Shown here: piece after piece, positions 7,581 through 59,860 of the stretch
How positions within the stretch are numbered: the stretch's first letter is position 1
How the letters are laid out: each line of letters begins with the position of its first letter
Source: Clostridia bacterium
GTDB lineage: Bacteria > Bacillota > Clostridia > Lachnospirales > Lachnospiraceae
Direction: 5' to 3'
NCBI GenBank assembly: GCA_910574835.1
Contig: CAJTDE010000003.1
Coordinates: 124,001-188,000 of the forward strand
DNA length: 64,000 nucleotides
Made by a program: the position numbers and the translations under genes
Notes under the pieces: model-generated
What the model was told of the DNA's origin: nothing
Database searches by the model: none
Seen by the model: the letters and a program-made list of their open reading frames with translations, nothing else

Positions 7581-8735
7581 TTAACAGGATAGGCTTTCCC
7601 GGGCGGTTCTCCAGAGCCTGAACACCTGCTCACTGGTCTCCAGAAGGTTTTCCCTTGCATTTTCCGGATTCATGGCTTCCTCAAGCGTCCCCACTCTCCG
7701 CAATATGGGAAAGAATGCGTCAATCCCGGCTTCATTGCAGGCCGCCGCATCCTTTTTGACGATACCGGAAAAGGCAATTACCGGCTTCCCATACTTCTTC
7801 GCAAGTCCGGCCACCCCAATCGGCGCCTTCCCCTGAACTGTCTGCCCATCCAGGCAGCCCTCACCGGTTACAACAAGATCCGCATCCTTTATAAGCTCCT
7901 CCAGCCGCGTTTCTTCCATCACGATCTGAATACCGGATTCCAGTACCGCATTGGTAAAGGTCAAAAATGCATAGCCTAAGCCTCCGGCCGCCCCGGTTCC
8001 CGGCGCTTCCGAATCGGCCGACGGATTCAGAGCCTTTGCCAGAAATGCAAAGCGCCCCAGATAACTGTCCAATCTGGTAACCATTTCCGGGTCCGCCCCC
8101 TTTTGCGGTCCATAAACAGCGCTGGCGCCGGAAGGACCGCAGAGAGGATTGGTCACATCACAGGCAATCCGGAAAGTACATTCCTTTAACTCCTCCATAA
8201 CATTCTTTGCCGTAATTTTGTAAAGGGCAGAAAGCCCCTCTCCCCCGAAAGGCACCTGATTCCCTTCCTGATCAAGCATCTCAAAGCCCAATGCCTGAAG
8301 CATACCGATTCCGCCGTCGTTCGTAGCGCTGCCTCCGATCCCCACTATAAAATGACGGCATCCTTTTTTGACGGCATCCCGAATCATCTCGCCCACACCA
8401 TAGGTTGTGGTTTTCATGGGGTTGCGTTTCTCCGGCTCTGTCAATGTGATTCCTGCTGCCGCCGCCATCTCCAACACTGCGGTTTTTCCATCGGGAAGAA
8501 TACCATAGGACGCAGTTACCGGCTCTCCCAAAGGACCTGTCGCCGTTAAGCTCTGCCAGCTCCCTTTCAGACCTGCGGTCAATGCCTCCGCCGTCCCCTC
8601 TCCGCCGTCTGCCAAAGGACAAACCCGGACCTCTGCCTCCGGATACACTCTTTTGATCCCCTCCGCGATTATGCCGCCCGCCTCCGTTGAAGCAAGGCTT
8701 CCCTTTAATGAATCAATTGCAATAATTATTCTCAT
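7581..8735 (-). CDS. Glycerate 2-kinase (GlxK/GarK family)
   Basis: Phosphorylates D-glycerate to 2- (or 3-) phosphoglycerate, feeding glycolysis. The 384 residues begin MRIIIAIDSLKGSLAS and contain PLADGGEGTAEAL (about 45), GIGGSATNDGGIGML (about 130) and VVTGEGCLDGQTVQGKAP (about 280), all typical of the family. The start at 8735 has GGAG seven bases upstream; the longer frame to 8762 has no such site. It follows the thiolase gene by 81 bases on the same strand, so it may be the last gene of the acyl-CoA operon or separate. Its metabolic link to that operon is unclear. Confidence 0.92.
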   Translation of the reverse strand: MRIIIAIDSLKGSLASTEAGGIIAEGIKRVYPEAEVRVCPLADGGEGTAEALTAGLKGSWQSLTATGPLGEPVTASYGILPDGKTAVLEMAAAAGITLTEPEKRNPMKTTTYGVGEMIRDAVKKGCRHFIVGIGGSATNDGGIGMLQALGFEMLDQEGNQVPFGGEGLSALYKITAKNVMEELKECTFRIACDVTNPLCGPSGASAVYGPQKGADPEMVTRLDSYLGRFAFLAKALNPSADSEAPGTGAAGGLGYAFLTFTNAVLESGIQIVMEETRLEELIKDADLVVTGEGCLDGQTVQGKAPIGVAGLAKKYGKPVIAFSGIVKKDAAACNEAGIDAFFPILRRVGTLEEAMNPENARENLLETSEQVFRLWRTARESLSC

Positions 8736-8816
8736 CTTTTTCTCCATATGGCAAATGGACACACAAGCGCGCCTGCATGTCCATCTGACCTTTTTGTAAT
8801 CTTGACAGCAATTTTA

Positions 8817-9995
8817 TTAACATTTTTTAAAGTACATGGAGATTCCCTGCCCGCCTCCGATGCACATGCTAATCATAGCATCTTTCTTATCGGTCCGCAA
8901 TAATTCATACAAAACTTTTACTGTCAGTATGGCTCCGGTCGCTCCAATGGGATGTCCGATGGAGATTCCGCCTCCATATATATTCACCTTATCTTTGTCA
9001 AGCCCCAGATCACGGCTTACCGCATAGGCCTGACTTGCAAAAGCCTCGTTGATCTCAAACATATCAATGTCCTTTAGATTCAATCCCAATTTTGCAGCCA
9101 GCTTTTCACTGGAAAACTTGGGAGAGTAGCCCATAAGCTCCGCATCAAAGCCTGCCACGGCAAAGCCTTCTATCTTAAGCTTGGGAGTTACGCCCAGCTC
9201 CTTTGCCTTTTCTGCGGACATTACCACAACGGCCGCCGCTCCGTCGTTTAAGCTGGAGGAATTTCCGGCCGTTACGGTGCCGTCCTTTACAAAACAGGGA
9301 CGAAGCTTTGCCAGCTTTTCTATTGTCTGCCCATCCCTGGGGCCTTCATCTGTGTCAAAGACCGTGACATTCCCCTTCCGATCCTTTAACTCTACCGGAA
9401 GAATCTCATCCCTGAACTTTCCCGCCTTAATTGCCGCACATGCTTTCTGATGGCTTTCCAAGGCAAATTGATCCTGCTCTTCTCTTGTCACGTGATACTT
9501 TTCCGCCACATTTTCTGCCGTAACCCCATTGTGGTTGCCGTCCAGCGGCCAGGTCAAGATATCAATCACCCCATCCTCAAAGCTCTTATGCCCCATGCGC
9601 GCCCCCCAGCGGGCGTCCTTTACATAGTAAGGAAGCTGGGAGATATTCTCGGCGCCGCCGGCAACGACCACCTCTGCCTGGCCTGTTTGAATCTCCATCA
9701 CAGCCTCCGCAACAGACTGGAGTCCGGAACCGCACTGACGGTTTACCGAGTAGGCTGTGGACCCTTTGGGCATGCCGGCCTTTAAACTGATAGCTCTCGC
9801 GATAAATCCGTTTTCCGCCACCTCTCCTACCTGTCCGATGACTACCTCATCCACATCGGAGGGCTGAATCCCGGCACGCTTTACAGCCTCTTTTACTACC
9901 ATAGCTCCCATATCAATCGCGGATACATCCTTTAAGCTTCCGCCATAGCTTCCCACCGGAAGGCGGACGCCGCTTACAATTACTACCTCTTTCAT
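8817..9995 (-). CDS. Acetyl-CoA C-acetyltransferase (thiolase)
   Basis: A 392-residue biosynthetic/degradative thiolase interconverting two acetyl-CoA and acetoacetyl-CoA (or cleaving 3-ketoacyl-CoA). The nucleophilic cysteine is Cys88 in VNRQCGSG, the histidine is in GGGISIGHPIGATGA (about 347), and the second cysteine is in SMCIGGGQGI (about 378), so all three catalytic elements are present. It lies 19 bases after the 3-hydroxyacyl-CoA dehydrogenase gene and is the terminal step of the pathway encoded by the upstream genes. Confidence 0.95.
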   Translation of the reverse strand: MKEVVIVSGVRLPVGSYGGSLKDVSAIDMGAMVVKEAVKRAGIQPSDVDEVVIGQVGEVAENGFIARAISLKAGMPKGSTAYSVNRQCGSGLQSVAEAVMEIQTGQAEVVVAGGAENISQLPYYVKDARWGARMGHKSFEDGVIDILTWPLDGNHNGVTAENVAEKYHVTREEQDQFALESHQKACAAIKAGKFRDEILPVELKDRKGNVTVFDTDEGPRDGQTIEKLAKLRPCFVKDGTVTAGNSSSLNDGAAAVVVMSAEKAKELGVTPKLKIEGFAVAGFDAELMGYSPKFSSEKLAAKLGLNLKDIDMFEINEAFASQAYAVSRDLGLDKDKVNIYGGGISIGHPIGATGAILTVKVLYELLRTDKKDAMISMCIGGGQGISMYFKKC

Positions 9996-10014
9996 CTCTT
10001 CTTTTTCTCCCTTC

Positions 10015-10875
10015 TTAACCTATCTTATTTCCTTTTTCATCATATTTATAGAAGCCCTGCCCTGTTTTCCTGCCCAGATGTCCTGCCTTTACCATCGTCT
10101 CCAGCAGAGGGCAGGGTCTGTACTTGCTGTCATGGAAACCGTTGTAAAGTCCCGTCATAGTGGCAAGCATTGTGTCAATTCCCACAAAGTCCGTCAGCTC
10201 AATGGGACCCATAGGGTGGTTGCAGCCAAGCTTCATGGCATTGTCCACATCCTCCGGAGAGCTTCCCTCCATCACCATAAAAGCCGCCTCATTCTGCATG
10301 GGAACAAGAATCCGATTGACCATAAAGCCCGGATATTCCGGCGCATCTACCGTAGTCTTGCCGATCTGACCTGCAAACTCCTTTACCTTTCTATAGGTGT
10401 CATCCGAGGTTGCCAGCCCGCGCACCAGCTCCACCAGCTTCATCACCGGCGCCGGATAGAAGAAATGAACTCCCATCACCTTATCCGGGCGGTTGGTAAC
10501 CGATGCAATCTCAGAAATACTAAGCCCGGAAGTATTTGAAACAATCAGGGTGTCGGGTTTTGCCGCCTCGTCCACCTTCTTGAAGGTATCCTTTTTAATC
10601 TCAATTTTCTCCGGAACAGCCTCAATGACAATGGCTGCTTCCTTTACATCATCAAAGCTTCCGCTATAGGTTAATCTGCCTAAAATCTCCGCCTTTTTCT
10701 CCGCTGTCATGGACCCCTTTGCTACCTTCTTTGTAAAAAGCGCCTCCAAATTTGCCTTTGCCTTTTCGATGGCTGACGGGAAGGCGTCAATGTTCACGAC
10801 CTCAAGCCCTGCCTGGGCACACGCCTGTGCGATCCCGCTTCCCATAAGTCCTGCTCCAATCACTGCTACTTTCAT
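10015..10875 (-). CDS. hbd: 3-hydroxybutyryl-CoA dehydrogenase (S-specific)
   Basis: A 286-residue NAD(P)-dependent enzyme oxidising (S)-3-hydroxyacyl-CoA to 3-ketoacyl-CoA. The Rossmann motif GAGLMGSGIA is at residues 7-16, the catalytic histidine is in GVHFFYPAP (about 136), and the C-terminal domain carries NRILVPMQNEA and the terminal GRKTGQGFYKY. The ATG at 10875 with GGAGG seven bases upstream is preferred to the adjacent GTG. It lies between the CoA-transferase and thiolase genes. Confidence 0.95.
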   Translation of the reverse strand: MKVAVIGAGLMGSGIAQACAQAGLEVVNIDAFPSAIEKAKANLEALFTKKVAKGSMTAEKKAEILGRLTYSGSFDDVKEAAIVIEAVPEKIEIKKDTFKKVDEAAKPDTLIVSNTSGLSISEIASVTNRPDKVMGVHFFYPAPVMKLVELVRGLATSDDTYRKVKEFAGQIGKTTVDAPEYPGFMVNRILVPMQNEAAFMVMEGSSPEDVDNAMKLGCNHPMGPIELTDFVGIDTMLATMTGLYNGFHDSKYRPCPLLETMVKAGHLGRKTGQGFYKYDEKGNKIG

Positions 10876-43986: not shown

Positions 43987-44436
43987 TCACCCGACTCTTA
44001 CATGGTTTTTACGGGAAAAGTTCTCGTCGCTTGAACACAAGTAAATTATGCCTTCAACAAAGGATACGAGTGCCGGTATATAGGTCCAGCAAAAAACCAG
44101 GTACAGAATCCCCATACCAATCTTCCCCAGATAAAACTTATGTACGCCGAATCCTCCTAACAGAAGCGCAAGCACTCCGGCTGTCACCTTACTCTTTACC
44201 GGCCATCCGGCATTCGCTTCGGATGCATAAACCGGCGGCTGCATTCCCTGGTAATTCACAGGCTGTTGCTGCTGAACGTATACTGTCTGCGGCTGCTGAA
44301 CATATATCGGCTGCGGCTGCTGGGACTGCAGCTGCTGCGCTGCCTGCCGGACACTCAGCTTTTCTCCGCAATATTCACATTCGGTTGCTGTGGGATCAAT
44401 CGGTGCTCCACACTGTGGACATACATATCCTGCCAT
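43987..44436 (-). CDS. Zinc-ribbon TM2-domain membrane protein
   Basis: A 149-residue protein. The N-terminal zinc ribbon has CPQCGAPIDPTATECEYCG (6-24), followed by a Gln/Pro-rich linker (about 32-70). A C-terminal TM2 domain has two membrane helices with LGGFGVHKFYLGKIGMGIL and FCWTYIPALVSFVEGIIYL. AGGAGG lies eight bases before the ATG. It follows the SPFH/zinc-ribbon gene by 62 bases on the same strand, so the two probably act together at the membrane. Function unknown. Confidence 0.88.
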   Translation of the reverse strand: MAGYVCPQCGAPIDPTATECEYCGEKLSVRQAAQQLQSQQPQPIYVQQPQTVYVQQQQPVNYQGMQPPVYASEANAGWPVKSKVTAGVLALLLGGFGVHKFYLGKIGMGILYLVFCWTYIPALVSFVEGIIYLCSSDENFSRKNHVRVG

Positions 44437-44498
44437 AACATCTTCCTCCTAAACAATTATCATTTATCGTTTGCCCATCAATATACGGGCTTCTTTTC

Positions 44499-45548
44499 TC
44501 AGCGCTCTACTTTCTTTCCGCATTCGGGACAGAACTTCATGCCCGGAGTCAGTTTGCTTCCACATTCGCAAACCATCTCACTGTTATTAAACCCGCATTC
44601 GGGACAGAATTTTGCATTCACGGGAATACGCGCCTTGCACGAAACACATTCCTTTGTGTCTTCCTTGTGCAGGGGATTGCCTACGGTCTGGCTCATGGAT
44701 GCGCCTACCCCCATAGCCGCCCCCAGGCCCATGCCGCCTGCTACAAATGCTCCCGCTATGCCGCTCTTGTTATTGGCCGCGCCTTCATAGACATCGAAGG
44801 AACGCTTTGTTGTATAGCGCCCGTCTCCCATAATCTCAAAGGCGGCCTTATCCTCAAGGATCTCATTGATTTTCTCAAAGTCCTCATCCGGAAAATTAAT
44901 GGATTCTATAAAGAAATTCACAACCTTGAAGCCGTATTTCTCAAATTCCGGCGTGATCTTTTCTTTTACCTTATCTGACAGGCCCTCCAGCCGGGCGGCA
45001 ATCTCCAGAGCCGATATTTTATTCGTTATAATGGCATCTGCTATGACAGACTTTGCCTTAATTGCCAGGATGCCTCGGTAGTATTCTTTGATCTTATCAA
45101 ACTTTACAAGCTCATCCTTCTGCATACCGCCAATCAGTTCTTTAAACAGTGTGGACACATCCGTAACGCGAAGTCCCATCTGGCCGAAGGCGCGAACTCT
45201 CAGTTTTACATAATACTTGGGGTCGATCAGCTGTATGGGATCGGTGGTTCCCCAGTTAATGTCCAGTTTTAAAATTGTGTTTATAAAATAAACTTCCGCG
45301 CTGAAGGGCGTTTCTCCTCCGAAGGGCAGATTTACAATGGAATTTAATATCGGCAGATTGGCTGTGGACAGCGTATATGTACCGGGATAAAATACATCCG
45401 CCACGGCTCCGCCCTTTACAAAAATGGCGGCCTGCCCCTCCTGCACAATCAGCTGCGTGCCCAATACCAGCTTTTCGCTTGGATGCTTGTATGTCAGCCA
45501 GTCACGGCTTTTTAATCCGTCAAATCTTACTACATTTATAATAGCCAA
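44499..45548 (-). CDS. SPFH-domain protein with C-terminal zinc ribbons (YdjI-like)
   Basis: A 349-residue protein. Residues about 30-235 are the SPFH-type core (ELVLGTQLIVQEGQ-like N-terminus, FFIESINFPDEDFEKINEIL near the end). A Gly/Ala-rich stretch (AGAFVAGGMGLGAAMGVG, about 268) and two zinc ribbons follow (CVSCKARIPVNAKFCPECG and CECGSKLTPGMKFCPECG). It resembles the B. subtilis YdjI group, linked to membrane stress. The start is TTG at 45548 with GAGGGG eight bases upstream. It is a paralogue of the gene at 56625-57902. Confidence 0.85.
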   Translation of the reverse strand: MAIINVVRFDGLKSRDWLTYKHPSEKLVLGTQLIVQEGQAAIFVKGGAVADVFYPGTYTLSTANLPILNSIVNLPFGGETPFSAEVYFINTILKLDINWGTTDPIQLIDPKYYVKLRVRAFGQMGLRVTDVSTLFKELIGGMQKDELVKFDKIKEYYRGILAIKAKSVIADAIITNKISALEIAARLEGLSDKVKEKITPEFEKYGFKVVNFFIESINFPDEDFEKINEILEDKAAFEIMGDGRYTTKRSFDVYEGAANNKSGIAGAFVAGGMGLGAAMGVGASMSQTVGNPLHKEDTKECVSCKARIPVNAKFCPECGFNNSEMVCECGSKLTPGMKFCPECGKKVER

Positions 45549-45730: not shown

Positions 45731-46408
45731 TTAGGCCTGCGCTCTCTGCTGTTGTTTCTCCTTGTAATGATGCTTCTCCTCCAACATCATATCCTTTACC
45801 TTCATCAGACGAATCTGCGTACTTCTCTCATTTTCATCCAATTTCATGGTAATATACTTGATGTTGCTCTGGGCCTGAGGAATGATTACGTGCTCCAGCG
45901 CGTTTACACGGCGGCGGGTTTTCTCAATCTCGCTGGCCATCAACTGGCAAGCCTTCTCACGTTCCGCCAGCAGCAGCATATCCGGCAGAATATCCGCCAG
46001 AGACTTTACCGCGTCATCCAGATCGCTGGATGTAAACGCAAAGCCGTAAGAATAAATATCATTCGTATCCGCAGTCCGGGTCTTGTACTCAAACACCGGA
46101 ATATCCACGCTCATTACGTTCTTGGTAGAGGTTTCCAGATATACCTCCTGCTTGGGCGCCATCAGCGCAACACGCAGAATTTCCTCCGACATTCCTGCCT
46201 TGGCAATGACAAAATTCTTGTTGGCAGATTTGATGCCTGCCTCCACTTTCTCACGAAGAGCCATGTTTTCACGGACCATCTCAAGGAACTGACGCATCAG
46301 CTCGTCTCGCTTATCCTTCAGAAGCTTGTGCCCCCGGGTAGCCGTAACCAGCTTTTTCTTCTGCTTGGTCAGCTCCATTCGGGTTGGAGTTACCTGGGTA
46401 GATGCCAA
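45731..46408 (-). CDS. ntpD: V-type ATP synthase subunit D
   Basis: A 225-residue central-stalk subunit forming the rotor axle with subunit F. It is a long antiparallel helical hairpin; the N-terminus TPTRMELTKQKKKLVTATRG and the C-terminal RRVNALEHVIIPQ segment are typical. The start is TTG at 46408 with GGAGGTGAT six bases upstream. Last gene of the operon, 13 bases after subunit B. Confidence 0.93.
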   Translation of the reverse strand: MASTQVTPTRMELTKQKKKLVTATRGHKLLKDKRDELMRQFLEMVRENMALREKVEAGIKSANKNFVIAKAGMSEEILRVALMAPKQEVYLETSTKNVMSVDIPVFEYKTRTADTNDIYSYGFAFTSSDLDDAVKSLADILPDMLLLAEREKACQLMASEIEKTRRRVNALEHVIIPQAQSNIKYITMKLDENERSTQIRLMKVKDMMLEEKHHYKEKQQQRAQA

Positions 46409-56147: not shown

Positions 56148-56624
56148 GGCAAGGCTGCTTTCAGGATTGTGTTGTTTTGAAGATGGGTGGATATTTATAT
56201 TTGAAGAGTTTGGATAGTTGGATAGCCGCGGTGTTTTTTGGAATGCTGCGGCTTTTTATTTGTGTTTGTATATGCCTGGGGGCTGCGGGTCAGACGGACA
56301 TGGCCCGGGCTGCCCTCGCAGGCCTAAGTGTTCATCTTGTGCCGGCATGTTCATTTGACTGTGCCAGGATGTCGGTATTGTGAGTCGCTTCTTTGCTGAA
56401 ATATATTTAAATAAATTTAAAGAGCATCAAATTATTTCTGTTGTTTTTTCTTGTTTTTCCCATTTCTGCGTATTATAATATTACTGTTCATGTATTAAAA
56501 AATATGCTGTCGGCGAGGGAGTAAACGGCGGTATAGAAAGTTTCTTTTTTTAATATGCGCGTCAAAGCGACTTTACCTTTTGGCGCTATTGCGCAGCGAT
56601 TTTAAATAGTAGGAGGAAAAAGCC
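56148..56624 (+). promoter_or_regulatory. Intergenic region before the zinc-ribbon operon
   Basis: Contains a terminator for the symporter (AGCCGC 56224-56229 / GCGGCT 56248-56253, then TTTTTATTTG), a promoter TTGTTT (56451-56456) / TATAAT (56474-56479) with a 17-base spacer, and the 5'-UTR repeat module (56555-56616). A 68-codon frame at 56177-56383 has no ribosome site and is not called. Confidence 0.65.
56555..56616 (+). repeat. 5'-UTR repeat module, copy 4 (before the zinc-ribbon operon)
   Basis: Blocks GCGACTTTACC, the hairpin GCGC-TATT-GCGC, AGCGATTTTAAATAG and TAGGAGG appear in the same order as before valS (2417-2470), although the two genes are unrelated and 54 kb apart. It ends eight bases before the ATG. 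Confidence 0.6.
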
Positions 56625-57902
56625 ATGCCGGTTATGAATGTAATCAAGAATGAGGCATACGGCAATATGCTTTGTGCCAAGATTCCATGCGAGGACTTTA
56701 ATATCGGTTCTCAGCTCATTGTGGCGGAGTATGAAGAGGCATTGTTTGTAAAGGACGGTGTAATCGAGGAGATCTTCGGGCCGGGAAAGTACACGCTGAA
56801 CACAGAGAACTACCCGTTTCTTACAAAGCTCGTGTCAAAGCTTCTGACAGGAGGCGTAAGCGCCTACAGCTGCAAGGTATATTATATCAACAAGTCTCAT
56901 CACCTGGAATTAAAATGGGGAACGCCCATGCCCATCCGCTGCATTGACCCCGTATGGGGAATTGAAACGCACGTCCAGGGGCGGGGAGCCTATTCCGTAG
57001 TCGTGAAAGACGGCAAGAAGTTCTTTGTAAAAATGGTGGGCGCCAATGAGGCGGCAGCGGAATCGGATATCATCAAGCAGTTTAAGACAGCATTTCTGCA
57101 GAATATAACAGATCAGCTCTTTGAATACTTAAACGGAGCGGAGACAGAGGTCATCGTTACCTGCAACCGGAAGAACGCCCTGGCTCAGACCCTGACCCCG
57201 ATCCTGAACCATGTTCTGGATGAGTATGGCCTGGAGTTGGTGAACTTCTATATTGAGAATCTGGAGATTCCGGAAAAGGATGATTCCATGCAGCGTATCC
57301 GCGAGATGCGTATTCAGCGGCAGGAGCGGCAGTTCGAGCGTGAGCAGACGATGGCGGATCAGCGCCTGGAATTTGGCATGCGCCAGGAGAGCGCGGTGGC
57401 GGACCGTTTTGTATCCGGCCAGAAGGCGCAGTCCGATTACGAGCGGATGAAGATTCGGGATCAGGACGGCAACAACGGCTGGGCAAGGCAGGAGGCCGCG
57501 GAGATTATGAAAACAATGGCGGAGAATCCGGACGGCAGCAGCAACATTATGGCAGAGATTGGAATGGGCCTGGGAATGGGACGGGCCATCGGCAACGCGG
57601 CCGAGGATATGTTTGCCAACCTGAATGCGCCGGGAGGAACAGGCGGACAGAAAACCATCATTTGTCCTGCCTGCAATGCGGCGAATCCCGAGGGCACCAA
57701 GTTCTGCGGAAACTGCGGCGAATCCCTGGCGCCGAAAGCCAACATCTGCGCCAACTGCGGAGCTGAGGTGGCGCCCGGCATGAAATTCTGCGGACAGTGC
57801 GGAACACCTGTAGCGCCTGTAGTAAAGCACTGTACCAACTGCGGGACCGAGCTTGCTCCTGATGTAAAGTTCTGCGGAAACTGCGGAACAAAGGTAAATT
57901 AG
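56625..57902 (+). CDS. SPFH-domain protein with three zinc ribbons (YdjI-like)
   Basis: A 425-residue protein. The SPFH-type core covers about 25-215 (FNIGSQLIVAEYEEALFVKD at the start, LVNFYIENLEIPEKD at the end). A charged helical stretch (about 220-280, MRIQRQERQFEREQTMADQR), a Gly/Met-rich segment (IGMGLGMGRAIG, about 308) and three zinc ribbons from about 347 follow, each CxxC-x10-CxxC (CPACNAANPEGTKFCGNCG, CANCGAEVAPGMKFCGQCG, CTNCGTELAPDVKFCGNCG). AGGAGG precedes the ATG. First gene of a four-gene operon; paralogous to 44499-45548. Confidence 0.85.
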   Translation: MPVMNVIKNEAYGNMLCAKIPCEDFNIGSQLIVAEYEEALFVKDGVIEEIFGPGKYTLNTENYPFLTKLVSKLLTGGVSAYSCKVYYINKSHHLELKWGTPMPIRCIDPVWGIETHVQGRGAYSVVVKDGKKFFVKMVGANEAAAESDIIKQFKTAFLQNITDQLFEYLNGAETEVIVTCNRKNALAQTLTPILNHVLDEYGLELVNFYIENLEIPEKDDSMQRIREMRIQRQERQFEREQTMADQRLEFGMRQESAVADRFVSGQKAQSDYERMKIRDQDGNNGWARQEAAEIMKTMAENPDGSSNIMAEIGMGLGMGRAIGNAAEDMFANLNAPGGTGGQKTIICPACNAANPEGTKFCGNCGESLAPKANICANCGAEVAPGMKFCGQCGTPVAPVVKHCTNCGTELAPDVKFCGNCGTKVN

Positions 57903-57917
57903 TAGGAGGAATCCGGA

Positions 57918-58595
57918 ATGAATAAAAAAATGACAAAGCTGGCAGGGGCCGTCGTGTTCCTGATTCTGATTAATATAGGCCTGTTTTCCTTGGCCGCCAT
58001 AAAGCTTACATCTTTTTGGATAAGCTGGATCTTTATACATATTGCATTTCTCATATTTGCCGGAATCCTGATCTTCAGCGCGCCGGAGCAGAGAAAGCTT
58101 AAGTTTGCCTATTCCGAGACGGCGGTAGCGGCCTATTATTTCATTATAGAGCTGATCGCAGGCTATGTGCTGCTGACATATTTTGTATTTATGCCCGTGA
58201 TATCTTTTGTGATACAGACGGTGATTCTTGCGGTATTTTTGATCGCCTTCTTTATGCTGAAAGGAATGAACCGCGACATAGACCGGAAGGAAGACGCGGC
58301 AAAGGCTGATCTGCGTCAGTTCCAGGCCATACTGGAATTTATGAAGGATGTGCAGAGTCAGGTAGACTACAGCGCTCCCTATAAAAAAACCATACAGCAC
58401 GCCTACGACGCCATCAGCGGCTCCCAGGTAAAATCCTCCCCCGCCGTATATGAGGTGGAAAAAAACATCTGGGACCTGATCGGCCAGTTAAAAAAAGAAG
58501 TCGCAGCGGAAAATGAGGAGCGCATAAACGCCCTTTGCCGCGACATCGAGAATCAGACGGCAGAGAGAAACCGCCGTCTCCGGTTGGAGCGCTAA
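57918..58595 (+). CDS. Membrane protein with C-terminal helical domain
   Basis: A 225-residue protein I do not recognise. Four hydrophobic segments lie in the first 115 residues (about 8-28, 31-52, 70-88, 92-113), followed by a charged helical cytoplasmic domain (KGMNRDIDRKEDAAKADLRQ onwards) with likely coiled coils near the end. It starts 15 bases after the SPFH gene with TAGGAGGAATCC upstream, so it is co-expressed. Probably the membrane partner of the SPFH protein. Confidence 0.75.
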   Translation: MNKKMTKLAGAVVFLILINIGLFSLAAIKLTSFWISWIFIHIAFLIFAGILIFSAPEQRKLKFAYSETAVAAYYFIIELIAGYVLLTYFVFMPVISFVIQTVILAVFLIAFFMLKGMNRDIDRKEDAAKADLRQFQAILEFMKDVQSQVDYSAPYKKTIQHAYDAISGSQVKSSPAVYEVEKNIWDLIGQLKKEVAAENEERINALCRDIENQTAERNRRLRLER

Positions 58596-58643
58596 AGAAG
58601 ATAGTTTCCGACAGAGAGAAATATACAAAAGGAGAATATACAA

Positions 58644-59309
58644 ATGAACAATACATCTTATCCCTGGTACTTATCATGGCCGGCAATTATTGTCGTTTTC
58701 ATCTTTTTCTGGCCGGCGGCCATCGTTTTAATTTATCTGAGAACCCAGAGCACAAAGGGAGGCGCGTTTGCGGCGGCGTCCAACAAAAAAATTTATATGA
58801 TTCTGGGCGGCGTCCTGATAGTATTCGGCCTGCTGCGCTTCAAAAACTCCGTTCCAATGGCACTGTTTCTGATTGTGGGCGGCGCCGCGATGATTTATTA
58901 TGCGAATACACTGGCAAAAAAAGCCTCCAGAAATAAGAGCTACATCGATCTTCTTGTAAATCAGGGAGAAACCAGTATCGACAAGGTTGCTAACATGCTG
59001 AATGTAAGGTATGATATAGCCCTGAAGGAGATAAAAACCATGAAGTCTCTTGGTATCCTGAAGGGGGCCAATATAGACGAACAGACCCGCAGCGTATCCA
59101 TTACAAACGTTCAGAACGCGGCGGGAGAGATCACCGGCATGGTAAGTTCCGTCACGGACGCCCTCTTGGGAGGCGCTTCCACCGCAGCCGCATCCGGAGC
59201 CGCGGAAACCGTAGAAGGCGCATGCCCCGGATGCGGAGCAAAATATACGGGACCAAAGGGAAGCACCGTAACCTGCAGCTATTGTGATGCCACATTCGTA
59301 CTGCATTAA
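58644..59309 (+). CDS. Membrane protein with winged-helix/PCI-like segment and zinc finger
   Basis: A 221-residue protein. Three hydrophobic helices (about 6-30, 48-65, 70-88) are followed by a helical segment, SIDKVANMLNVRYDIALKEI (about 112-131), that looks like a small winged-helix or PCI-type module. A C-terminal single zinc ribbon follows, CPGCGAKYTGPKGSTVTCSYC, about residue 193. AAGGAG precedes the ATG. Third gene of the operon. The family is unrecognised beyond these parts. Confidence 0.75.
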   Translation: MNNTSYPWYLSWPAIIVVFIFFWPAAIVLIYLRTQSTKGGAFAAASNKKIYMILGGVLIVFGLLRFKNSVPMALFLIVGGAAMIYYANTLAKKASRNKSYIDLLVNQGETSIDKVANMLNVRYDIALKEIKTMKSLGILKGANIDEQTRSVSITNVQNAAGEITGMVSSVTDALLGGASTAAASGAAETVEGACPGCGAKYTGPKGSTVTCSYCDATFVLH

Positions 59310-59404
59310 GCCGAATACCGCACAGGAAATAAAAATAAAACAGGGGTCCGTCTCAAAAGTAAATATCCGCGAAAAGCAGACGGCCCCCCGAATGGGAGAA
59401 ACAA

Positions 59405-59860
59405 ATGGACATATTTAATAAAGCAAAGGAATCCCTGAGCGCAGCCGGAAAGGGCTTCACCCAGAAGGCCAGCGACGTATCCGGACTGGCAAAAGTAACC
59501 ATGAAAATCAAAGAGGAGGAAAAACAGCTTGACCAGTCCTTAAAAGAACTGGGAACCCTCCTGTTCAACCAGTACAACGAAGAGTCAAAGCAGCTTTTCC
59601 CTCAGCAGTCGGAAAACATCCGTCAGCTTTACGCCGCGCTTCAGCAGGATCGGGAAGAACTGGCCTATCTGAAAGGAAAAAAGATATGCCCCAACTGCGG
59701 CGCGGAACTGGACGGCGACGTACAGCGCTGTACAAGCTGCGGCATGAACGTAGAAAACGTAGTAAGGCCAAGCCGGATCCAGGCATACTGTCAAAGCTGC
59801 GGCGCCCAGCTAACCCCAGGCTCCAGATTCTGCAACAACTGCGGAGCAAAAATAGAGTAA
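59405..59860 (+). CDS. Coiled-coil protein with two zinc ribbons
   Basis: A 151-residue soluble protein. The N-terminal half is a helical hairpin-like coiled coil (MDIFNKAKESLSAAGKGF, then KIKEEEKQLDQSLKELGTLL). The C-terminal half has two zinc ribbons, CPNCGAELDGDVQRCTSCG (about 97) and CQSCGAQLTPGSRFCNNCG (about 130). The start has GGGAG ahead of it. It lies 95 bases after the third gene, in the same direction. Role unknown; it could be the soluble partner of the membrane-bound zinc-ribbon proteins. Confidence 0.78.
   Translation: MDIFNKAKESLSAAGKGFTQKASDVSGLAKVTMKIKEEEKQLDQSLKELGTLLFNQYNEESKQLFPQQSENIRQLYAALQQDREELAYLKGKKICPNCGAELDGDVQRCTSCGMNVENVVRPSRIQAYCQSCGAQLTPGSRFCNNCGAKIE

Follow-up and report, generated by a model that had tools for sequence, protein, structure and literature searches.

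A probable zinc-ribbon SPFH operon in a Lachnospiraceae genome: a coupled SPFH and four-helix membrane protein core with varying third partners

We analyzed a stretch of 64,000 nucleotides (the window) from a Clostridia bacterium of the family Lachnospiraceae (GenBank assembly GCA_910574835.1, contig CAJTDE010000003.1, positions 124,001 to 188,000), in which four co-directional open reading frames (ORFs) on the + strand, here named A, B, C, and D, occupy positions 56625-59860. A first-pass annotation, made from the sequence alone, had described them as a zinc-ribbon/SPFH operon of four genes on one strand with short gaps. This layout was confirmed, the gaps being 15 bp (A-B), 48 bp (B-C), and 95 bp (C-D). 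The genes and associated elements are as follows.

56451..56479, + strand: candidate promoter, TTGTTT - 17 nt - TATAAT (perfect -10 element at 56474-56479 found by script; -35 element read from the sequence)
56625..57902, + strand: gene A, 425 aa, soluble SPFH (Band_7_1) protein with three C-terminal zinc ribbons (Pfam, alignment, hydropathy)
57918..58595, + strand: gene B, 225 aa, protein with four transmembrane (TM) segments and a helical C-terminal part (hydropathy; no Pfam match over the cut-off)
58644..59309, + strand: gene C, 221 aa, protein with three TM segments, a long helix, a winged-helix/PCI-like part (about residues 96-155), and a C-terminal zinc ribbon (residues 194-214)
59310..59404, + strand: C-D gap with a GC-rich hairpin lacking a T run (-19.5 kcal/mol by RNAfold, a single value with no shuffle baseline)
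59405..59860, + strand: gene D, 151 aa, accessory helical protein with an amphipathic N-terminal stretch and two zinc ribbons

Protein A matches Band_7_1 (PF13421) with an E value of 2e-35 (122.7 bits against a cut-off of 24) and thus carries an SPFH domain, and zinc-ribbon matches were also reported for it by Pfam. Twelve ribbon cysteines are invariant in all 14 aligned sequences, which indicates three ribbons, in agreement with the first-pass description of this protein. No TM segment was found in A by hydropathy, and there was neither a flotillin row nor a hydrophobic segment that could form a membrane hairpin. B, previously described as a four-helix membrane protein, indeed has four TM segments by hydropathy; its Pfam scan gave nothing over the cut-off and no row for TPM, the domain of YdjH. 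Fusions of cytochrome b562 topped a PDB profile search with B; we read this as an artefact of TM segments combined with a helical bundle and did not adopt a relationship. In the portions of the open-licence literature available to us, no description of the B family or of its exchange of partners was found.

Three TM segments were predicted in C by hydropathy, and its four ribbon cysteines are invariant in 13/13 sequences, so that the earlier account of a three-helix membrane protein with a zinc finger holds in these parts; the winged-helix/PCI-like part is seen only in a low-confidence structure model. The Pfam scan of C gave nothing over the cut-off and no TPM row, and in a PDB profile search zinc-ribbon proteins rank first, with a best E value of only 0.008. 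The winged helix of C might bind DNA or RNA polymerase, with A and B holding C at the membrane until stress releases or activates it. We consider such a membrane-tethered regulator distinctly unlikely: the best rows of a fold search with the low-confidence model of C are COP9 and 26S-lid chains.

The claim that the operon has its own promoter fared only partly well. The -10 element is perfect, but the -35 element is poor, agreeing with the consensus at only 3/6 positions. A promoter consensus scan omits this site and lists instead a 9-of-12 site at 56378-56407; because the scan is at chance level (8 sites against 6.9 in shuffles) and the candidate is absent from its list, an own promoter is plausible only. 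The terminator scan found no + strand match in the three gaps and two terminator-like matches on the - strand inside the C-D gap, where the hairpin is a possible attenuation or processing site. Compared with two relatives (L008 and L010), dN/dS is 0.025-0.074 across A-D, with dS values of 0.85-3.0 that are near or at saturation; by this sequence measure the four ORFs are under purifying selection and, given such low ratios, are not chance ORFs.

A protein search with one genome per species yielded 43 loci, 14 of which (L007-L020) match A over its full length; the other 29 are distant or align chiefly through the zinc ribbons. L007 contributes little further information, being almost identical to the window. 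B and then C lie downstream of A in all 14 close loci, and a full-length D follows C in seven (L007-L010 and L016-L018). The gaps in L008-L020 are 5-59 bp (A-B), 15-98 bp (B-C), and 8-56 bp (C-D). No match to D was found after C in Pseudobutyrivibrio/Butyrivibrio (L011-L015) or Ruminococcus (L019 and L020), where the downstream ORFs were read for L011, L013, L019, and L020 and tblastn alone was used for L012, L014, and L015. The first three genes are therefore kept together, as had been expected of all four, but D, lacking a match in half of these loci, is accessory. Within the genus, an A orthologue is present in 3/16 genomes (E 1e-20), both others of which carry A-B-C-D, while 4/16 carry a diverged SPFH-B pair with a TIR gene instead (both of those scanned, L217 and L245, have TIR_2 over the Pfam cut-off). 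Thus, the set is conserved yet patchy. In L016 (5179-13293), A-B-C-D is flanked by rplA and rplJ and precedes rpoB. The operon is not described in the accessible parts of the open-licence literature, PMC8581546, PMC9239133, PMC10936438, PMC11237479, and PMC7159879 included.

Across more distant genomes, SPFH and B form a coupled two-gene core, and the third partners vary. In a class sample, B matches 11/245 Clostridia genomes (its own included); of the 11 B loci from the ten other genomes, 10 have an adjoining SPFH gene, and L064 is cut at a contig end. A broader B profile gave a match in 34/250 Lachnospiraceae. The family survey consists of 27 loci from 26 Lachnospiraceae genomes and leaves out six weak B matches (E 7e-5 to 9e-4) and a second weak match in G285. 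An SPFH gene is present in the cluster of B in 25 of these 27 loci (with one gene between in L201) and was not found in L211 and L215; the window operon and these 25 loci thus represent SPFH-plus-B modules. In a phylum sample, B matches 6/209 genomes, and one match was left out. Three of the four loci read have SPFH-B-C, with a second C-like gene in L241 and L242 and a single one in L244; L243 has no SPFH gene within the stretch examined.

The third partners were classified from profile matches and reading by eye within the printed stretch, on contigs that are sometimes short. On this basis, the 27 family loci comprise seven with a zinc-ribbon-TIR protein, four with a C-type protein (L204, L209, L212, and L218), two with Snf7-like plus Vps4-like proteins, and 14 with another partner or none, and the class loci comprise five TIR (L066-L070), two C-type (L071 and L074), and three others. 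Such an exchange of A-B partners is not visible from the window, and the first-pass account, sound in describing an operon-like set around a ribbon-bearing SPFH protein, does not contain it.

An SPFH tree of 53 rows was built, omitting the near-duplicates L007, L012, L015, L017, and L073 and the loci L241-L249; it has several long branches, and its outer placements are unsure. The A protein of the window belongs to a group of 11 A-B-C(-D) rows (support 100/100), next to which stand L194, L197, and L201, with other ribbon proteins or without a clear partner. The C-type loci L071, L074, L105, L204, L209, L212, and L218 make up one side of another branch (91/88). C-type proteins thus partner with two separate SPFH groups, reflecting either an old association or two acquisitions. 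TIR rows show 7 changes against 13.5 in shuffles and are therefore clustered, yet several gains or losses are needed. PspA-linked and V-ATPase-linked SPFH proteins stand apart from the SPFH-B proteins, although the place of the former is unsure because the branch is very long.

The TIR-linked clusters bring in a different explanation, in which SPFH and B sense membrane changes inflicted by phages and the third protein acts as an effector, often a zinc-ribbon-TIR protein with NAD-cleaving or signalling activity, with C of the window as a non-enzymatic effector or regulator. In the family loci concerned (L192, L199, L200, L202, L206, L207, and L217), up to three ORFs lie between. Zinc-ribbon-TIR proteins match 11/245 class genomes (E 1e-15), in eight of which they share one cluster with SPFH-B; the matches outside such a cluster are in G103 (alone), G105 (a 3,270-base contig with TIR genes only), and G009 (diverged). 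B and TIR matches, 11 each among the 245 genomes, coincide in six genomes with about 0.5 expected (hypergeometric P 7e-7, which is only a guide because the genomes are related and kinship is uncorrected). TIR_2 is over the Pfam cut-off in all 13 proteins scanned (L066, L068, L192, L134, L136, L137, L199, L200, L202, L206, L207, L217, and L245), and the assignment for L067, L069, and L070 rests on the profile match. One zinc-ribbon-TIR protein has a weak match to ThcB4 of Thoeris type III (E 2e-7, under the cut-off). The patchy distribution within the genus would also suit a defence function.

On the other side, neither TIR nor any other enzyme family is over the cut-off in A-D, and no zinc-ribbon-TIR protein was found in the own genome (E 1e-15). 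The PADLOC release used, which dates from 2023, gave no convincing family for A-D (best CasR for C, E 4e-4, and LmuB for D, E 8e-5), and of ten neighbouring genes scanned at other SPFH-B or TIR loci, five gave no PADLOC match or a marginal one. The operon is flanked by the agcS carrier gene, two tRNA genes, and, further upstream, V-ATPase genes, which do not make a defence island. Taking both sides together, we regard a defence sentry as a rather unlikely role for the window operon.

Compared with the window operon, the SPFH-B-zinc-ribbon-TIR clusters (such as L066-L070, L134, L136, L137, and L192) have homologous SPFH and B proteins and a CxxC...CEYC-type ribbon on the third protein. Unlike C, however, this third protein combines TIR with TPR-like repeats and is not a winged-helix membrane protein, and the SPFH proteins of these clusters are placed elsewhere in the tree than A. 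Zinc-ribbon-TIR-TPR proteins with SPFH and B were observed in L066-L070, L134, L136, L137, L192, L199, L200, L202, L206, L207, L217, and L245-L247, and some of them have a C-terminal DUF6273. In L134, a retron-like pair of type II-A, made up of NDT and a reverse transcriptase (RT), lies at 8515-10361 near the SPFH-B-TIR cluster, and a UG26-type RT and a PDC-S15 candidate lie near TIR genes on the same contig in G087 (L141). These elements suit a defence role of the TIR versions, not of the window operon.

A further partner class consists of two gene sets.

L205 2500-5881 (SPFH present): B with a Snf7-like (ESCRT-III-like) gene beside a CdvC/Vps4-like AAA ATPase gene
L215 2438-5903 (no SPFH): the same arrangement

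The two Snf7-like proteins share 66% identity. PF03357 aligns end to end with that of L215 (E 4e-5) and matches that of L205 with E 0.04, both under the cut-off, and a PDB profile search with the pair gave nothing useful. In the L205 ATPase, AAA is over the Pfam cut-off and MIT and Vps4_C are under it. The archaeal CdvC model matches over the whole length (E 8e-61, 206 bits against a cut-off of 650), and CDC48 scores alike; from these scores, the ATPase is read as probably Vps4-like. Such sets are rare (2/27 family loci). PF03357 gave two matches among 250 Lachnospiraceae, none over the cut-off and one of them in G258 (a 704-aa frame), in a survey that missed the Snf7-like gene of G395 (L205), and a Snf7-like profile gave a single weak match (E 7e-4) in the 245 class genomes. 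The parts of the literature available to us contain precedents for a Snf7-like and Vps4-like pair, and no place beside SPFH-B was found there. These clusters share a homologous B (L205 and L215) and, in L205, a homologous SPFH protein with the window operon, but differ in encoding a CdvC/Vps4-like ATPase and an ESCRT-III-like protein; D is not detectably related to the two Snf7-like proteins. The bacterial PspA or Snf7 operons with AAA+ ATPases, as treated in the accessible part of PMC11237479, combine membrane-remodelling proteins with an ATPase and membrane partners. The window operon has neither the remodelling protein nor the ATPase, and only L205 and L215 come near.

D had been annotated as a coiled-coil protein with two zinc ribbons that possibly takes the place of PspA in a PspA-less complex. 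Its two ribbons stand, with eight cysteines invariant in 7/7 sequences and zinc-ribbon families as the only ones over the Pfam cut-off, and its structure model is helical (mean pLDDT 68, pTM 0.37), with helices at residues 3-64 and 66-89 followed by the ribbons. Hydropathy found no TM segment in D. The ESCRT-III fold is a multi-helix one, and for D the model contains two helices together with two ribbons. Neither PF04012 nor PF03357 appears in the top 25 of the 37 families reported for D, and neither matches D in searches of the own genome. A profile comparison of D with the PspA of its own genome and the Snf7-like pair gave no significant match, by a method that is insensitive since it also fails to link the Snf7-like pair to PspA. 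D was thus rejected as a detectable PspA homologue. D-like helical parts occur in 30/245 genomes, its own included.

The organism is also not PspA-less: a PF04012 search of its genome gave a single PspA at C2:219640-220302, on another contig than the operon, with the following gene order.

L051 3527-6309 (own genome, contig C2): pspA, YdjG-like, and YdjI-like genes in a row (labels by domain layout)

This PspA is adjoined by a membrane protein bearing a ribbon and by a 321-aa SPFH protein whose ribbon is C-terminal, with no TPM (YdjH) gene between the three. The presence of PspA elsewhere in the genome defeats the replacement idea. No PspA family was detected among A-D in the Pfam scan, and a single tblastn query with this genome's own PspA (E 1e-5, limited flanks) found none in the other loci.

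The parallel drawn by the first-pass annotation to ydjGHI of Bacillus subtilis is supported, A being a soluble, ribbon-bearing SPFH protein in constant company with membrane partners. In the accessible part of PMC8581546, YdjI needs YdjG and YdjH for membrane localisation and in turn localises PspA; that of PMC11237479 regards the band-7 partners of PspA as chaperones for assembly and mentions abbreviated band-7 operons that might work with PspA encoded elsewhere. As far as these sources could be consulted, both systems have an SPFH protein that is soluble, carries zinc ribbon at its C terminus, and depends on integral partners (YdjI; predicted for A), and both have a ribbon-bearing membrane partner. 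Unlike pspA-ydjGHI, the window operon has no PspA and no TPM-domain protein, its B belongs to a 4-TM family without Pfam match over the cut-off, its C has a putative winged helix, and a separate locus elsewhere in its genome contains pspA together with YdjG-like and YdjI-like genes. By analogy, the operon fits the picture of band-7 operons that may act with PspA encoded elsewhere (PMC11237479, seen in part). With flotillin (FloA/FloT) and YuaF/YqiJ operons it shares the SPFH scaffold, but A has no membrane anchor and matches no flotillin model. Membership in the flotillin, Thoeris, or ydjGHI-proper groups was not adopted, as there is no flotillin match, no TIR, and no PspA or TPM in the operon.

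Together, these comparisons suggest that the operon encodes an SPFH scaffold which is anchored in the membrane and serves its surveillance or repair, an interpretation to which we give about an even chance of being correct. A, which has no membrane anchor, would form an SPFH oligomer on the inner leaflet in the manner of YdjI, by binding integral partners. B, with its four TM segments and helical domain, would be its dedicated anchor, and C, with three TM segments, a long helix, a PCI-like winged helix, and a zinc ribbon, would provide an adaptor or output slot. D may be an optional peripheral protein with an amphipathic helix, a helical hairpin, and two ribbons. Docking would be mediated by the zinc ribbons, and complex formation, a role in membrane stress, and the feeding of different outputs by one core are likewise inferred from gene content and domain layout.

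A single theme of this kind is challenged by L193 (3677-9873), where SPFH-B is followed two genes downstream by hflK and hflC (E 8e-68 and 3e-58, over the cut-off). The HflK/C enclosure holds back or feeds the membrane protease FtsH, and an SPFH enclosure of A and B could do the same for a membrane protease or insertase. The SPFH fold of A, the L193 arrangement, and the ribosomal-gene context of the L016 operon would agree with such quality control of membrane proteins; however, hflKC stands beside SPFH-B in one locus only, and no recurring protease gene beside A-B was noticed by eye, no systematic search having been made. We consider this role improbable.

A bolder extension of the membrane-surveillance scaffold is that SPFH and the 4-TM B form a general bacterial sensor of membrane damage whose output evolution has exchanged, with a PCI-like winged-helix adaptor in the window and, elsewhere, a suicide effector of the zinc-ribbon-TIR type or a repair machine resembling ESCRT-III/Vps4. 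This is possible, although we would not bet on it; if true, one sensor links immunity and membrane repair in Bacillota. SPFH proteins are widespread, and to our knowledge what they report to is mostly unknown. Here, one such protein is joined by a 4-TM partner that is constant and has no name, and by a third partner that can be exchanged; the set of exchanged proteins (winged-helix adaptor, TIR, ESCRT-III-like plus Vps4-like) suggests that sensing at the membrane and the response to it can be separated as modules.

Besides the operon and the pspA locus, the genome contains a third SPFH-ribbon gene in the window.

43987-45548, - strand: SPFH-ribbon gene (44499-45548), then a TM2-domain ribbon gene, behind V-type ATPase genes

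Subunit D of the V-type ATPase is encoded at 45731-46408. In the same genus, SPFH, a TM2-type gene, and ntpD occur together in L231 and L233, and SPFH occurs with a TM2-type gene in L234. In L112 and L113, SPFH, C-like, TPM, YdjG-like, and TMEM43-like genes form one cluster with no PspA match.

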